Source: Devosia ureilytica
Lineage (GTDB): Bacteria > Pseudomonadota > Alphaproteobacteria > Rhizobiales > Devosiaceae
Assembly: GCF_024273195.1 (NCBI RefSeq)
Contig: NZ_JAMZCU010000005.1
Coordinates: 95,628 to 159,627, forward strand
DNA length: 64,000 nucleotides
Reading direction: 5' to 3'
The notes beneath the pieces were generated by a model that did not search any database, was not told where the DNA came from, and saw only the letters and a list, made by a program, of their open reading frames with translations. Made by a program: the position numbers and the translations under genes. This document shows positions 25,807 to 64,000 of this stretch, piece by piece (the first letter of the stretch is position 1; each line of letters opens with the position of its first letter).

Positions 25807-26514
25807 TTAGGCGACGTTCTCGCTATAGACTTCGCTCTCGTCCGGCTCACGCAGCACATAGCCGCGGCCCCAGACGGTCTCGATGTAATTCTTGCCGCCG
25901 GTGGCAACGCTGAGCTTCTTGCGCAGCTTGCAGATGAAGACGTCGATGATCTTCAGTTCCGGCTCGTCCATGCCACCATAGAGGTGGTTGAGGAACATTT
26001 CCTTGGTGAGGGTTGTCCCCTTGCGGAGCGAAAGCAGCTCCAGCATCTGGTACTCCTTGCCCGTCAGGTGAACCCGCGCGCCCTGGACTTCCACAGTCTT
26101 GGTATCGAGGTTGACCATGAGGTCGCCCGTCGAGATGACCGACTGGGCATGGCCCTTGGAGCGACGGACGATGGCGTGGATGCGGGCCACGAGTTCGTCC
26201 TTGTGGAACGGCTTGGTCATGTAGTCGTCGGCGCCGAAGCCGAGACCGCGAACCTTGTCCTCGATGCCCGCGAGGCCCGAAAGGATAAGTATTGGCGTCT
26301 GCACCTTGGCAACGCGCAATGTCCGCAAGACTTCGTAACCGCTCATATCCGGCAGATTCAAGTCCAGCAGAATGATGTCATAATCATAAAGCTTACCGAG
26401 ATCGACGCCTTCTTCACCGAGGTCGGTGGTGTAGACGTTGAAACTTTCGGACTTCAGCATCAGCTCGATGCTCTGCGCCGTGGCGCTATCGTCCTCAATA
26501 AGGAGTACCCGCAT
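25807..26514 (-). CDS. ctrA: Cell-cycle master response regulator CtrA
   Basis: A protein of 235 residues. The receiver has D8/D9 acids, phospho-acceptor Asp51 ([10 protein letters not shown]) and Lys in [10 protein letters not shown]. The OmpR-type winged helix is highly conserved ([43 protein letters not shown]). The C-terminus ends ENVA rather than the double Ala of Caulobacter. CtrA controls division, motility and envelope genes. It is divergent from fliI with a 455-base spacer carrying CtrA-like boxes. Confidence 0.98.
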
Positions 26515-26969
26515 TATATTCCCCTTGCCATTCGTTCCTGCTGGAACCTGCGGGAGGCCTGGCCATATTGCCGTTCCCGCTCCAACCCTACTGGATATGA
26601 CTGAAGCCTAAGCCCAACTAGTTAACAAAGTTTAATTCTGATCCGCAATACGCAAAGAGCGTTAGTACAACTTTATCTTAAGTTACTGAAAAATAACGAT
26701 AAATGCCCTATAAAATTCTTAAGGTACTACATTAAGAAAGGGTTCCAAGAGACTCTTGGGACTCAAGCTATTCGGGCTTTTGGGGGTGGTTTTGCCACAA
26801 TGGTGGCGGTGAACGGAATTAGCCGATCATCACTGCCAATAGCGCTTTTGAGTTAATGATCGGTTACGATCTGATTCGCACGAACCAACGATTCGAGCCC
26901 GGCTGGAAACCATAAATATGGCACGGGGCCACCGCCAGGCTATCGATGATGAACGGCCACAGGGCTTAG
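26515..26969. promoter_or_regulatory. ctrA-fliI divergent regulatory region
   Basis: A 455-base AT-rich spacer. It holds a probable CtrA box TTAA-N7-TTAC at 26853-26867, a weak TTAG-N7-TTAT at 26662-26676, and a TTAA-N6-TTAA at 26622-26635. There is an inverted repeat TTCTTAA/TTAAGAA at 26717-26723 and 26733-26739. Four GANTC sites (potential CcrM targets) start at 26752, 26760, 26873 and 26890. In Caulobacter, ctrA transcription is sensitive to CtrA and GANTC methylation. No ORF is credible here. Confidence 0.6.
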
Positions 26970-28853: not shown

Positions 28854-29927
28854 TTACAGGTCGGTGGCGCGCTGGGCCGGATCGTCGGCGTAGGTGGCCT
28901 CGTCGTATTCCGGCTGGGCTTCGAGCTGTTCGCGGGTGAAGTCCGAATAGATAATCAGATCGCCGTTTTCGTTCGACGCGAACTCAAGGTTCTCAAGACC
29001 AACGGCAACGCGCTTTTCGCCAATGCCGAGGAAGCCACCAAAGTCGATCAGCATGGCGTCGACCTGGCCATCAGCCGTCAAGAGGATGTCGCCGACCACG
29101 GCAATGTCATCGCCTTCCGGGCCAATCACGGTGGCACCTGTGAGGTTCTCGGCCGTCAGGGCATCGACCTCGACGGCAGTATAGCCCTCACGCGGCAAGA
29201 CATTGGTCTGATCGGCATTCGTGGCATCATCAGCCGGAGCGACAGCCGGATCGGCTGGTGCCGCGGCAGGATCGGCAGGGGCCACAGCCGGATCAGCCGG
29301 TGCGACGGCCGGGTCAGCCGGTGCAACGGCCGGGTCAGCGGGGGCGACGGCCGGATCAGCAGGCTCCATGGCCGGGTCGGCTGCAACATCAACGTCCCAG
29401 ATGAAGTCCGGTGCAGCGTTCAGCGCGTCAGCCGTGGTGGCCAGCACCCAGCGCTCGGTTTCATCAAAGGCAATGGTGTATTCGAGCTCGGCAAAATCAA
29501 CGGCGACATTCTTTTCGCCAATGCCGAGGAAGCCACCAACGCCGATCACGACGGCATGGATTTCCCCATCCGTGGAAATGACGAGATCGTTGACGGTACC
29601 GATGGTTTCGGCATCTTCAGCGCCGCTCGAGAAAATGGTGGCGCCCATGATTTCGGACACCAGGGCATCACCCTCGCCTGCAACATAGCCGGCGGACATA
29701 TCCCAAGGCTCATCGGCCTCCATGGTGCCGTGATCGGCGGGGGTCATCGCATCATCAGCAGGGGCCATGGCATCATCGGCCGGGGCCGTAGCATCGTCAG
29801 CCGGCGCCATTTCGTTGGCCGGCGCCATCTCATTGGTCGGTGCCGTTTCGGTGGTGGTGGTCTGTGCGACAGCAGCAGTACCAAGCACCAGGGCAATGGC
29901 CGAGCTGGTAAGAAGTGTGCGGATCAT
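28854..29927 (-). CDS. Exported protein with two PRC-barrel domains and Pro/Ala/Asp repeats
   Basis: A protein of 357 residues. The signal peptide (about 1-22, ending AAVAQ) is followed by a 7-residue-period linker (APADDAM type), PRC-barrel 1 (about 75-170), a second linker of PADPAVA heptads (about 185-232), and PRC-barrel 2 (about 240-345). Both barrels share GGFLGIGEK-x-VAV. A GGAG site before the ATG at 29927 fixes the start; a longer frame lacks a site. An EcfG promoter lies ~95-115 bases upstream. It is probably a periplasmic stress protein; function unknown. Confidence 0.85.
   Translation of the reverse strand: MIRTLLTSSAIALVLGTAAVAQTTTTETAPTNEMAPANEMAPADDATAPADDAMAPADDAMTPADHGTMEADEPWDMSAGYVAGEGDALVSEIMGATIFSSGAEDAETIGTVNDLVISTDGEIHAVVIGVGGFLGIGEKNVAVDFAELEYTIAFDETERWVLATTADALNAAPDFIWDVDVAADPAMEPADPAVAPADPAVAPADPAVAPADPAVAPADPAAAPADPAVAPADDATNADQTNVLPREGYTAVEVDALTAENLTGATVIGPEGDDIAVVGDILLTADGQVDAMLIDFGGFLGIGEKRVAVGLENLEFASNENGDLIIYSDFTREQLEAQPEYDEATYADDPAQRATDL
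29232..29373. repeat. 21-base tandem repeat encoding PADPAVA heptads
   Basis: About six imperfect copies of a 21-base unit (7 codons) inside the PRC-barrel gene, differing mostly at third positions. Confidence 0.75.
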
Positions 29928-30381
29928 AGTAGGCTCCATAGGTTCATCGTTGCGGTGAACAGGGCCGTGCGGCGCAAAACTTGCCGGTAGCGCACCGTGC
30001 GGCCCATTGATGTTCGATGAACGCAAGGACCGCGCGAGGCGTTCCGCAGCTTTTTTGCGGGCCAATTCGGAACCAAAGAAAAAGCCGGCCGCTGATTGCA
30101 CCAGCGCCGGCTCTTCCCGCCTCCCGTTAACGGGTTATATTATTGTCGACCAACCGGGTGTGTCGCGGTCACGCCGGTCGATCTTTCTGCCCCCGGCGGC
30201 GCGGCATGGGGCGCGCAGGAGGGCTGACAGGACGACAATAGCGCAACCACGTGGACCGACCAGCCAGACCCCGGTTAATGCGTTAACGCAATGCTAATGC
30301 GCGCGACGTGTCGCCTTTTGGCGCGTCGTTTTCTCGCCTGTCTTGGTCCCAAAACCGGGACCCACTTTTGGCTGACATGCC
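29928..30381. other. 454-base intergenic region upstream of the PRC gene
   Basis: No gene is seen. It contains the EcfG promoter (30020-30045). Two 12-bp palindromes centred on GTTAAC occur: CCCGTTAACGGG at 30123-30134 and TGCGTTAACGCA at 30279-30290. The second is joined to a TTAA-N7-CTAA CtrA-like site at 30283-30297. A GGTCCC/GGGACC hairpin lies at 30345-30362, 20 bases past the GNAT stop; its flanking A-rich and CACTTTT motif resembles an intergenic motif I know from rhizobia. Confidence 0.5.
30020..30045 (-). promoter_or_regulatory. Predicted EcfG promoter of the PRC-barrel gene
   Basis: On the minus strand: GGAAC (30045-30041), 17 bases, CGTT (30023-30020), an exact consensus match. 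The predicted leader is about 85 bases. Confidence 0.65.
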
Positions 30382-36308: not shown

Positions 36309-36323
36309 TTAAGCGCGCTTTAA
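36309..36323. promoter_or_regulatory. Full-consensus CtrA box upstream of the outer-membrane protein gene
   Basis: TTAA-N7-TTAA with exact spacing, 62-76 bases before the ATG of the beta-barrel gene. In Brucella CtrA is reported to bind the omp25 promoter. Confidence 0.65.
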
Positions 36324-36384: not shown

Positions 36385-37131
36385 ATGCGTAACCTAACCG
36401 CTGCAATGCTGGTGGCAGGAGCCACCATGATTGCCGGGCAAGCCCTGGCTGCGGATCTGCCCTACTATCCCCCGGTCATTGAAATTCCCGATGTAGACTA
36501 TGGCTATTCTGGCTCGTTCTACCTGCGCGGCAGCGCCGGCCTGAACCTGATGTGGACACCCTATGTCCATCATCCGGACGCCTTATCCGCAGACAAGAAC
36601 TTCGCCATTACCGAATTCGGTTACGGCTATTCGGTCGGCGCCGGCGCTGGTTACGAATTCGGCAATGGCTTCCGCGTTGACGCGACGGTCGACTACCTCG
36701 CCAACGAGAACATGACCGCCTACATCAACGATGGTTCTGGTGGTGCTGTCCTCACCGTCGGCGACCACAAGCTTTCGCTGCGCTCCACTGTCCTGCTCGC
36801 CAACGCCTATTACGATTTCGGCCTGGGCCTGGGCGATGGTTATGGTGCTGCTGGTGGCGCGTTTGGCTATGTCGGCGCTGGCGCTGGCGTTGCCTTCAAC
36901 GACTTCATCACCACCGGCTCCGCACTGCCCGATACCCGTGACCAGAACACCAGCCTTGCCGCTGCTGGCATGGTCGGCGTGGGCTATGATTTCGGTCAGG
37001 TGGTTGCAGACGTGGGCTACCGGGCCCTTTACATCAACCGCATCCACAACGATGCAGCCACCCACCCCTACACGCTCGACAACAATTGGATCCACGAAGT
37101 GCGCGGCTCCGTGCGCTATCGCTTCAACTAA
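36385..37131 (+). CDS. Outer-membrane beta-barrel protein (Omp25/RopB-like)
   Basis: A protein of 248 residues. The signal peptide ends near GQALA. The mature part shows Gly/Tyr/Asn-rich alternating strands (GYGYSVGAGAGYEFGNGFRVD, VGVGYDFGQVVADVGYRALY) and ends in Phe-Asn (VRYRFN), typical of an 8-stranded barrel of the Omp25/OmpA-like small porin class. An AAAGGACC site precedes the ATG. A perfect CtrA box lies upstream. Confidence 0.88.
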   Translation: MRNLTAAMLVAGATMIAGQALAADLPYYPPVIEIPDVDYGYSGSFYLRGSAGLNLMWTPYVHHPDALSADKNFAITEFGYGYSVGAGAGYEFGNGFRVDATVDYLANENMTAYINDGSGGAVLTVGDHKLSLRSTVLLANAYYDFGLGLGDGYGAAGGAFGYVGAGAGVAFNDFITTGSALPDTRDQNTSLAAAGMVGVGYDFGQVVADVGYRALYINRIHNDAATHPYTLDNNWIHEVRGSVRYRFN

Positions 37132-47894: not shown

Positions 47895-47950
47895 CCACCT
47901 CTCCCCCGGCGTATCTCCCGCCTCAGGACACCTCTCCCTAACGAGAGGCG
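47895..47950. repeat. Dispersed palindromic repeat, copy 2, ahead of serC
   Basis: Two ACCTCTCCC-like blocks and a CCTCTC (47931-47936) / GAGAGG (47943-47948) hairpin, same family as at 1-58. It lies just before serC. The preceding 47723-47894 has a GGG-CGAA-A-TTCG-CCC hairpin near 47744 but no ORF. Confidence 0.5.
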
Positions 47951-47975
47951 CATAGGCCTGGGAGGGCCGCTGAAG

Positions 47976-59372: not shown

Positions 59373-59458
59373 TTTGGTCTCCCTTCGTTTGGTGTGCGGC
59401 CATGGGTGAAGGGATGTGTCAATGGTAAGGACGCGCGAGGGCACCCTTGCCATCTCGA

Positions 59459-59540
59459 ACTTCCTCCGCCAGCATGACCTGGTTCAGGTTCTATGGGTAA
59501 CTCTCAGCTCCGGCGGTAACCGGAACACCCCAGCGAGACG
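59459..59540 (-). promoter_or_regulatory. TPP (THI element) riboswitch upstream of thiBPQ
   Basis: On the minus strand the conserved blocks occur in order: CTGGGGTG, GCTGAGA, ACCC, GAACCTGAACCAGG, and GGCGGAGGAA. The element ends about 90 bases before the thiB start. Binding of thiamine pyrophosphate would switch off thiamine import. Confidence 0.95.
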
Positions 59541-59569
59541 GTGCGGACCTTATTGAGAGTGAACCCAGA

Positions 59570-62965: not shown

Positions 62966-63487
62966 TTATTCGGCGCGGGCGAAGGCGGCCTTGAGGCGGG
63001 AGAGCTGGTCGGCCACGCCATTGGCAACACCCGGCGTCATCGGCGGCAAAGTGCCCTTTTCCAGTGCGTCGAGCTGCATCACCCGCTCAAACAGGCGGTC
63101 GCCCTTTTCGATAAAGTCGCGCAGCGCCCGCGGCAGCTCGTCATAGCCCGGCCCGCCGCGCTGCGAGGGCGTTGCGGAGAACTTGACCTTCTCCTTTTCG
63201 GAGCGGGCGTTGTCGCGCGAGATCTCGCCTTCATTGACCGCCCGCTGCAACAAGAGCCACGAGGCCAGCTGCATCAGGCGCGTGGTCAGGCGCATGGATT
63301 CGGTGGCGTAGAGGAAGCCGGCTTCGCGCGGCAGCACCCGGCTCTCGATCCGGCCATCGGCGTCGAGATAAGCGGCCACGGCCTCGATCAGGCCCATGCC
63401 TTCGCGGTAGAGCGCATCAAAACCACTCGACGCCACGATACGCGGACCGATTGAGATTGCTTGCCTCGTGTCGCCATTGTCGGCCAA
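62966..63487 (-). CDS. rcdA: DUF1465 protein, RcdA (regulator of CtrA degradation) family
   Basis: A protein of 173 residues starting at a TTG with an AGGAG site 7 bases before it. The helical core FDALYREGMGLIEAVAAYLDADGR, ESMRLTTRLMQLASWLLLQRAV and LPRALRDFIEKGDRLFERVMQLD is that of PF07323. In Caulobacter RcdA helps deliver CtrA and other substrates to ClpXP via CpdR and PopA. The family link is from established knowledge; the local role is inferred. Confidence 0.82.
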   Translation of the reverse strand: MADNGDTRQAISIGPRIVASSGFDALYREGMGLIEAVAAYLDADGRIESRVLPREAGFLYATESMRLTTRLMQLASWLLLQRAVNEGEISRDNARSEKEKVKFSATPSQRGGPGYDELPRALRDFIEKGDRLFERVMQLDALEKGTLPPMTPGVANGVADQLSRLKAAFARAE

Positions 63488-63600
63488 TGGGGGTCTCCTC
63501 TATGGACCGATGCTAGCCCGAACCGGGCAAGGGGTCACTTGAAGGGTCCCAGTATTGTTAATTTTGTGGTTGAAGCGTGGCCCGCCAAACCTGGCCCTGA

Positions 63601-63631
63601 AAAAGAAAAAGAGCCGCAAGACTGCAGCTCT
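63601..63631 (-). terminator. Terminator of the predicted small RNA
   Basis: On the minus strand AGAGC and GCTCT (with inner GCA/TGC pairs) form a hairpin at 63610-63631, followed by TTTTTCTTTT. No annotated coding gene ends close upstream (the nearest stops at 63769). Confidence 0.85.
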
Positions 63632-63695
63632 CGAAGTTAACAGGGAGGCGTCAAACAGAGGGAGAAACCACTCTGAAAAATCCAGAACAATCTGA
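63601..63695 (-). ncRNA. Predicted CtrA-controlled small RNA next to rcdA
   Basis: On the minus strand, a perfect CtrA box (63721-63735) is followed by a predicted start near 63690-63695, then about 90 bases and a Rho-independent terminator at 63601-63631. Three stem-loops can be drawn: TTCAGA/TCTGGA, CAGAG/CTCTG, and the terminator. A single-stranded CGCCTCCCTG segment (near 63642-63651) looks like an anti-Shine-Dalgarno seed. No ORF or RBS is seen. It would end before the rcdA promoter region. Confidence 0.6.
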
Positions 63696-63720
63696 ATAAC
63701 CTGACGTTACCGCCCAAACA

Positions 63721-63735
63721 TTAATTTGGCCTTAA
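63721..63735. promoter_or_regulatory. Full-consensus CtrA box
   Basis: TTAA-N7-TTAA, exact spacing, between the 69-codon ORF and rcdA. A weaker TTAA-N7-GATT follows at 63750-63764. It is placed at about -26 to -45 of the predicted small RNA. Confidence 0.7.
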
Positions 63736-63768
63736 CAGGCAGAGGTTTCTTAACCCTGTCGATTGACT

Positions 63769-63978
63769 TCAGCGCAACCTTACCGATTTGCCCTCAAGCA
63801 GAGCACGACCGGTCAGGGTGATGATGGCGTCATCGCCAATAACATCGACCCATCCCTTGGCATGGAGTGGCACGATGTCCCGGCGCGCCGGCGGCACGGC
63901 GCCATCGGCCAATGCCCGCAGGGAAGCAATTTCGCTGGCATGCACGCCCTCGAGAATAAGATCGTCCTGTCGCACCAT
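63769..63978 (-). CDS. Small protein of unknown function
   Basis: A protein of 69 residues starting MVRQDDLILEGVHASEIASL from the second ATG (AGGAG six bases before; an ATG at 63984 is only two codons earlier). It is a hydrophilic alpha-beta protein ending in LTGRALLEGKSVRLR. The stop is 34 bases from the CtrA box. The family is not recognised; anything further upstream is outside the window. Confidence 0.7.
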   Translation of the reverse strand: MVRQDDLILEGVHASEIASLRALADGAVPPARRDIVPLHAKGWVDVIGDDAIITLTGRALLEGKSVRLR

Positions 63979-64000
63979 TTCCATCTCCTCCGTGAACCTT

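Follow-up and report, generated by a model that had tools for sequence, protein, structure and literature searches.

Features of the rcdA locus in Devosia ureilytica

The 64,000-nt stretch of Devosia ureilytica DNA analysed here, referred to as the window, encodes CtrA and carries a predicted sRNA gene, preceded by a CtrA-type box, between a short ORF and rcdA. The features are given below in the direction of transcription, with ctrA last.

63769-63984, minus strand: upstream ORF of 71 codons (69 from the second ATG), with its stop 33 nt before the box
63721-63735, minus strand: TTAA-N7-TTAA box of CtrA type, a perfect match on either strand, located where the predicted promoter would have its -35 region and at a conserved position in homologues
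63704-63709, minus strand: putative -10-like element TAACGT, a weak match to TATAAT (own-family consensus TAANNT at box+26 to +31)
63604-63697, minus strand: predicted sRNA of the RF02356/BjrC1505 family, with the start at ~63697 (+/-2) predicted from box+38 and the end at the T-run
63680-63697, minus strand: stem-loop 1, double-sided changes in 6/6 modelled pairs, 97.0% paired
63656-63675, minus strand: stem-loop 2, double-sided changes in 6/6 modelled pairs, 97.5% paired
63640-63660, minus strand: near-invariant core CUCUGUUUGACGCCUCCCUGU, the likely target-pairing region
63643-63648, minus strand: near-invariant CCUCCC, similar to an anti-Shine-Dalgarno sequence and forming the hexaloop of a weak hairpin predicted at 63654-63637
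63600-63632, minus strand: Rho-independent terminator, a 10-bp stem (63632-63609) and T-rich tail, double-sided changes in 8/8 pairs
62966-63487, minus strand: rcdA (DUF1465/PF07323, Pfam match E 9.5e-52), by homology an adaptor for CtrA proteolysis
25807-26514, minus strand: ctrA, the presumed regulator, with Response_reg and Trans_reg_C domains, in the same window

An initial annotation of this DNA had placed an exact TTAA-N7-TTAA at 63721-63735, which a pattern search confirmed. The hairpin and T-run terminator that it described were borne out, as was the gap of 114 bases from there to rcdA, counted from 63601. The minus-strand ORF that it noted before the box is also present, though with 71 codons and a stop 33 nt from the box rather than the 69 codons and 34 bases first given. 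This ORF has no Pfam match at E<=0.001, and a similar ORF was found in 11 of 145 homologous loci, which had been chosen for the RNA.

Searched against Rfam, positions 63743-63604 matched RF02356 (BjrC1505) over the full length of the model (1-140 of 140) with 58.5 bits, above the gathering cut-off of 50, so the sRNA belongs to a known curated family and is not a new RNA. The window sequence is identical to the conserved core CUCUGUUUGACGCCUCCCUGU of RF02356 homologues and also has the terminator. As scored on 143 of the 145 loci (L026 and L130 were dropped), this core is near-invariant, and each of its last 13 positions, GACGCCUCCCUGU, is kept in 141-143 loci, partly owing to the anchor used.

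Elsewhere in the window, a TPP riboswitch (59444-59542, minus strand, 55.4 bits) and a serC leader (47921-47974, plus strand, 40.8 bits) also scored above their Rfam cut-offs.

Three covarying helices define the RNA

For the 94-nt RNA of the window, the predicted folding energy is -30.9 kcal/mol, lower than that of any of 200 shuffles (z -3.9). A covariance model of the RNA only, R1, was built from 16 other sequences and found the RNA in 93 of 94 loci, including the window at 63699-63602 (E 9e-12) and loci titled S. meliloti, Agrobacterium and Methylobacterium; the one miss was L193. Across 93 sequences, with the window included and the truncated matches at L087, L098 and L119 excluded, all 20 pairs of three helices showed changes on both sides. 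Pairing in these helices held in 97.0% of cells, against 35-53% for slid and 85.7% for shuffled versions, with a covariation score of 0.337 versus 0.129, in an alignment that was fitted to the structure and hence favours the pairing figures.

The conservation of the hairpins in relatives that the initial annotation had set as a check was thus found, although its count of three possible stem-loops needs adjusting: four hairpins are predicted, and three of the four covary. The fourth is weak, with near-invariant sequence. Its predicted fold puts CCTCCC into a hexaloop and not, as had been proposed, into a stretch free of hairpins.

A conserved CtrA-type box at promoter distance

Two exact TTAA-N7-TTAA sequences occur in the window, versus none in 100 dinucleotide shuffles. 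Genome-wide, TTAA-N7-TTAAC gave 26 rows (13 per strand, many of them a single palindromic site read twice) versus 16 for the reversed pattern. A perfect box by itself is therefore not rare, and its strength is conservation. Taking the best of 45 candidate positions, we found that 136 of 144 homologous promoter regions hold a box matching at least 7/8 directly upstream of the RNA. Four windows lying farther upstream had such a box in 6, 4, 0 and 1 of the 144 loci, two windows within the RNA in 0/145, and two beyond the terminator in 23/145 and 8/145; among shuffled promoter windows the figure was 5.5%. The box alignment and the upstream counts cover 144 of the 145 loci, one being omitted for lack of flank. 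Information content in the half-site columns is 1.59 and 1.65 bits for the 89 loci from other families and 1.92-1.93 bits for the 55 from the window's own family; the 7-nt spacer has 0.45 and 0.66 bits and the 50 nt upstream 0.09 and 0.71 bits (other-family and own-family sets, respectively). The alignment behind these values was built on the best box per locus, which favours the half-sites.

Eleven bases past the box, the 55 own-family loci share a TAANNT (T 0.98, A 1.00, A 0.85, T 0.96). If this serves as a -10-like element, transcription would begin near box+38, at 63697, which would put the box at about -38 to -24. No sigma-70 site passed the promoter scan of the region. In CtrA-activated promoters, the box is usually centred ~31 nt before the start, in place of the -35 element, with no recognisable -35. 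As expected of a promoter under CtrA control, TTAA-N7-TTAA lies at promoter distance from the predicted start and CtrA is encoded in the genome; the window protein is 95% identical to an approximate 80-residue CtrA N-terminus used as query. Judging from the pattern of conservation, the box is probably promoter DNA rather than RNA sequence. As most of the related genomes examined keep the box, CtrA probably acts as the switch for the sRNA.

The second of the two exact copies in the window (36309-36323) lies 61 nt before a 248-codon ORF (36385-37131, plus strand), which by eye has a signal-peptide-like start, has no Pfam match at E<=1e-5 and is a possible CtrA-controlled surface protein. The ctrA leader (26515-26700, minus strand) is strongly conserved across six genomes of the same genus and contains, by eye, a site with 6-nt spacing, TTAA-N6-TTAAC, ~100 nt upstream of the start that may serve in autoregulation.

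Synteny with rcdA and distribution

Within flanks of up to 1.5 kb, rcdA was found in 142 of the 145 loci fetched with the RNA, always downstream and on the same strand, at a distance of 71-805 nt (median 154); it was not found in the flanks of L089, L094 and L118. Among 101 genomes of the order covered by both the RF02356 and the rcdA scan, RF02356 matched anywhere in the genome in 82 of the 92 with rcdA versus 2 of the 9 without (Fisher p 3e-5, uncorrected for relatedness). R1 detected the RNA near rcdA in six of the ten rcdA genomes that had no RF02356 match, and four remained without. Loci fetched with rcdA gave a similar picture, with the core motif upstream in 27 of the 30 best-scoring (L169-L198), that of L196 being ~1.2 kb away. 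The RNA at L173 is matched by RF02356 below the cut-off, and L177 coincides with L161, a locus at which R1 detects the RNA; at L193, neither the core motif nor R1 indicated an RNA near rcdA. The RcdA of L161, from a genome of the window's order, is 100% identical over 171 residues to that of a record titled Rhizobium leguminosarum, so the order is the one that contains Rhizobium.

A further set of Rhizobiaceae-type rcdA loci (L199-L278) comprises the best 80 of 559 relatives, which are all Rhizobiaceae-like, so that the set does not sample the order, and its members are close kin and not independent. All 80 have CTCCCTG within 500 nt upstream of rcdA and a box of at least 7/8 ~80-105 nt before CTCCCTG (perfect in 61). 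In each of the 80, a further CtrA box, a perfect one, precedes the RcdA match by 128-143 nt. S. meliloti (L279, at 2863) has this second box too, while the window has no second CtrA box near rcdA.

Within the window's genus, 59 of 61 genomes contained an RF02356 match at E<=0.001. The figures were 74 of 81 for the family, 245 of 297 for the order and 40 of 385 for a sample of the class that is partly of the same order; there was no match in 14 control genomes. R1 matched 29 of 289 class genomes at E<=1e-4. Thirty class-level loci were examined, of which L333, L342, L344 and L354 were too short for box scoring, L329-L331 are from the same genomes as L150-L152, and L327, L336 and L338 belong to the window's own order. 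Outside the order, the RNA lies beside rcdA at L325, L326, L328, L332-L335, L340, L345 and L351 (and at L344 only at E 2e-7), with a weak box (6/8) at L328 and L345. Of the 14 scorable class-level loci in which no rcdA was detected, 10 have a box of 7/8 or 8/8 (L329-L331, L337, L339, L341, L343, L346, L352 and L353), some of these by chance since the box is the best of 45 positions, and L329-L331 are close relatives. The box thus tends to be retained together with the RNA, including at loci where the RNA does not adjoin rcdA.

At L347-L350, R1 matched an RNA with neither box nor detected rcdA, and these are possibly different RNAs. Three of them, L347, L349 and L350, come from separate genomes within a single other family of the class; they have a GCCUCCCUGU core and are perhaps another sRNA with the same seed. 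The RF02356 homologue at L150 (1547-1628), also without a detected rcdA nearby, gave sub-cut-off matches to SorY (34.8 bits, cut-off 111) and SorX (28.2 bits, cut-off 46.6). These singlet-oxygen sRNAs of Rhodobacter may be distant relatives of the RF02356 RNA.

A positional counterpart in Sinorhizobium meliloti

In S. meliloti Ak57, the order is a DUF1192 gene, a box (TTAACCGCAAATTAA), the RNA and DUF1465/rcdA. The RNA scores 39.3 bits with R1 and 27.2 bits (E 0.16) with RF02356, below the cut-off of 50, so kinship rests on R1, the gene order and the box. The titled Methylobacterium and Agrobacterium loci, with RF02356 scores of 50.5 (above the cut-off) and 37.9 bits, bridge the gap to S. meliloti. 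The Ak57 sequence was found in a PLSDB record named pSymB (CP090106.1, L279) that is 3.7 Mb long, carries rcdA and rpmE and looks like a mislabelled chromosome.

An RNA at this place is among the reported S. meliloti sRNAs. SmelC671 is listed as a 100-nt trans-encoded sRNA (PMC2873474) and corresponds to sm84, between SMc03988 and SMc03989, for which a Northern band of ~80 nt was reported, shorter than the RNA predicted here (PMC2573895). By gene order, SMc03989 would be rcdA. A conserved single-stranded CUCCCUGU motif, extensive microsynteny and an R. etli relative, ReC71, have been described for SmelC671 (PMC3927594), and a review table appears to give SmelC671/sm84 no sigma-factor promoter motif and expression in nodule zone II (PMC7143759). 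In Ak57, 100 nt counted from box+36 to +38 ends in a T-run; the published length therefore fits a start downstream of the box, which argues against a start upstream of it.

Alternative explanations

We consider it likely that the locus holds an independent sRNA gene of the RF02356 family, with the CtrA box as its -35 element, most likely activated by phosphorylated CtrA and acting by pairing with Shine-Dalgarno regions. Comparison across genomes supports the stand-alone RNA of ~90 nt with a CtrA-type promoter beside rcdA that the initial annotation had proposed, given its conservation in relatives and the reported expression of the S. meliloti positional counterpart. The RF02356 model, however, begins at 63743, 8 nt before the box, and the transcript could start there, which would make TTAA-N7-TTAA part of the RNA and not a promoter site. 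The 140-nt form does fold better than shuffles (z -4.1), and the fourteen 5´ pairs of the Rfam model are standard in 49.5% of cells over 141 of the 145 loci, slightly above every one of 300 shuffles (mean 46.2%, maximum 48.6%). This excess is real but small when set against the 97.0% of the downstream helices (93 sequences), a contrast that is somewhat overstated because the 5´ count was ungapped, which counts against those helices, and the downstream alignment was fitted. With the half-sites conserved and the spacer not, and with the published S. meliloti length fitting a start downstream of the box, a start upstream of the box seems very unlikely; model positions 1-45 appear to be promoter DNA, so that the Rfam model would treat the CtrA box as RNA that is paired in part. 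A 3´-UTR remnant of the 71-codon ORF is more improbable still: that ORF lies on the same strand and stops just before the box, but it has a similar ORF in so few of the loci chosen for the RNA, and a conserved promoter-type site separates it from the RNA.

The short RNA might instead be a by-product of attenuation in an rcdA 5´ leader, if CtrA drove rcdA from this box and most transcripts stopped at the terminator. The consistent position of rcdA downstream on the same strand would suit such an arrangement, as would a report that rcdA of A. fabrum uses more than one start and that its predicted CtrA site lies at a greater distance upstream than the Caulobacter one (PMC10469942). Against it, the stem-loops and the C-rich segment persist as a distinct unit, complete with a terminator. 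In other lineages the RNA is present with no detected adjoining rcdA, most of the scorable loci of this kind retaining the box, and the Rhizobiaceae-type loci all have a further perfect box closer to rcdA. In S. meliloti, where ChIP-seq placed CtrA at the rcdA promoter region, rcdA expression was reported not to change significantly on CtrA depletion (PMC4433202). We regard the leader as quite unlikely. It is also unlikely, if a little less so, that CtrA binds the box but represses the sRNA, so that the RNA is made only in the absence of CtrA. CtrA represses some promoters and activates others, the box overlaps the promoter, and at the window box the TTAAC orientation is on the opposite strand; a box centred ~31 nt before the start and replacing the -35 element is, however, the usual layout of activated promoters.

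Candidate targets and proposed role

In an independent, CtrA-activated sRNA gene, transcription on the minus strand would run from ~63697 to 63604, from a promoter in which the CtrA box replaces the -35 region and which phosphorylated CtrA most likely activates, a direction that we infer because the position of the box fits the usual layout of CtrA-activated promoters. The transcript would begin with two stem-loops, present the conserved C-rich UUUGACGCCUCCCUGU in a loop or as single strand, and end in a terminator with a U tail. Through UUUGACGCCUCCCUGU it would most likely pair with mRNAs at their Shine-Dalgarno regions and so lower their translation in trans; Hfq may take part. This mode of action is suggested by the anti-Shine-Dalgarno-like segment, since other sRNAs with such motifs are reported to block translation (PMC3927594).

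No convincing target emerged from a 17-nt pattern search of six same-genus genomes or from duplex energies for ctrA, gcrA, rcdA and the window ORFs. The complement of the 17-nt core, with at most 3 mismatches, occurred at 51 places in the six genomes (6 of them self-matches) versus 25 for the reversed control; five places in the window's own genome, besides the sRNA itself, have 3 mismatches each. For the ctrA translation start region, the energy was -14.7 to -15.7 kcal/mol in five of the six genomes, equal to background (median -15.5, 47 window ORFs), and -23.6 in one; the longer ctrA leader gave -17.9 to -25.2 kcal/mol, a range without matched background. By these duplex energies, ctrA is not a convincing target. 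Values for gcrA, whose start codons are uncertain, were about -22 in three genomes and -12 to -15 in the other three, and those for the rcdA 5´ region were -14.2 to -24.4 in six loci, likewise without matched background. The best duplex in the window (-27.7, ORF 28854-30101) was dropped, as it lies ~200 nt before the likely true start.

A broader possibility, which we put forward tentatively and on balance doubt, is that this locus, linked to CtrA and retained in most of the order, brings the CtrA period to a close through two outputs. One would be RcdA, which delivers CtrA to ClpXP, the other a CtrA-induced sRNA silencing CtrA-phase mRNAs at their ribosome-binding sites. If so, the ChIP-seq peak at the S. 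meliloti rcdA promoter would be at least partly the sRNA promoter. More generally, the sRNA promoter may explain this peak, although the second box nearer rcdA confounds the assignment and the two boxes could share the signal.

The ~94-nt sRNA is a further member of a described family, already in Rfam and in the rhizobial sRNA lists of 2008-2011, and its CtrA regulation, as suggested by the comparisons, appears new. In the open-licence literature searched, as far as the accessible texts go, we found no link of the BjrC1505/SmelC671/sm84 family to CtrA or rcdA and no function for the RF02356 sRNA; the original BjrC1505 paper is outside this scope. CtrA is absent from the main texts, as accessible, of PMC3927594, PMC2573895 and PMC2873474. 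PMC7143759 covers both sm84 and CtrA, with the sRNA named once in its accessible text, in a table. Beyond this record, the comparative evidence points to CtrA as the likely regulator and to rcdA as the fixed genomic partner, and it supplies a corrected 5´ end as well as a candidate region for pairing. Should this be confirmed, the RNA would be a very widely conserved CtrA-regulated sRNA and would bring an RNA layer into the order's cell-cycle circuit; it could also explain the S. meliloti ChIP-seq peak of CtrA whose assigned gene was not regulated.

Comparison with known sRNAs

The initial annotation had raised EcpR1 as a possible counterpart, which the data do not support. EcpR1 (SmelC291) is, like the window RNA, a conserved rhizobial sRNA with a cell-cycle connection, but it is reported to lie downstream of divK-pleD, with a strictly conserved UCCGCCGCAUCU loop, a sigma-70 promoter and ppGpp control (PMC4414408). 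UCCGCCGCAUCU is absent from the 94-nt sequence, which lies before rcdA and after the unrelated 71-codon ORF, and Rfam names BjrC1505. GspR (SmelC775), a cell-cycle sRNA of ~144 nt with three stem-loops that represses ctrA, is described as lying between SMc03844 and SMc03845, as reported only in Sinorhizobium and as having no known promoter signatures before its 5´ end (PMC5928217); the window RNA differs in its locus and wide distribution, and GspR was rejected. CcnA of Caulobacter is a non-coding RNA with a CtrA box, putatively activated by CtrA, that acts on ctrA and gcrA; it is set apart, by its description, by its place at the replication origin and by a homologue in S. meliloti that its authors did not clearly detect (PMC8959179). 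The mmgR/suhB family (RF00519) shares a C-rich segment followed by a terminator and was rejected because the window RNA scores 25.9 bits, below its cut-off of 41.

SmelC671/sm84 resembles the window RNA in its place before DUF1465/rcdA, the box in front, the single-stranded CUCCCUGU motif, the terminator and the R1 match, and differs in having the core UUUUUCUCCCUGUUUUACC instead of UUUGACGCCUCCCUGUUAACUUC and a second perfect box before rcdA. BjrC1505, an alphaproteobacterial sRNA reportedly described by Madhugiri in 2012, is close in the full-length, above-cut-off match, the same core and terminator, and homologues in the order that share the synteny with rcdA; its Rfam model differs by including ~45 nt that the present evidence would assign to promoter DNA.
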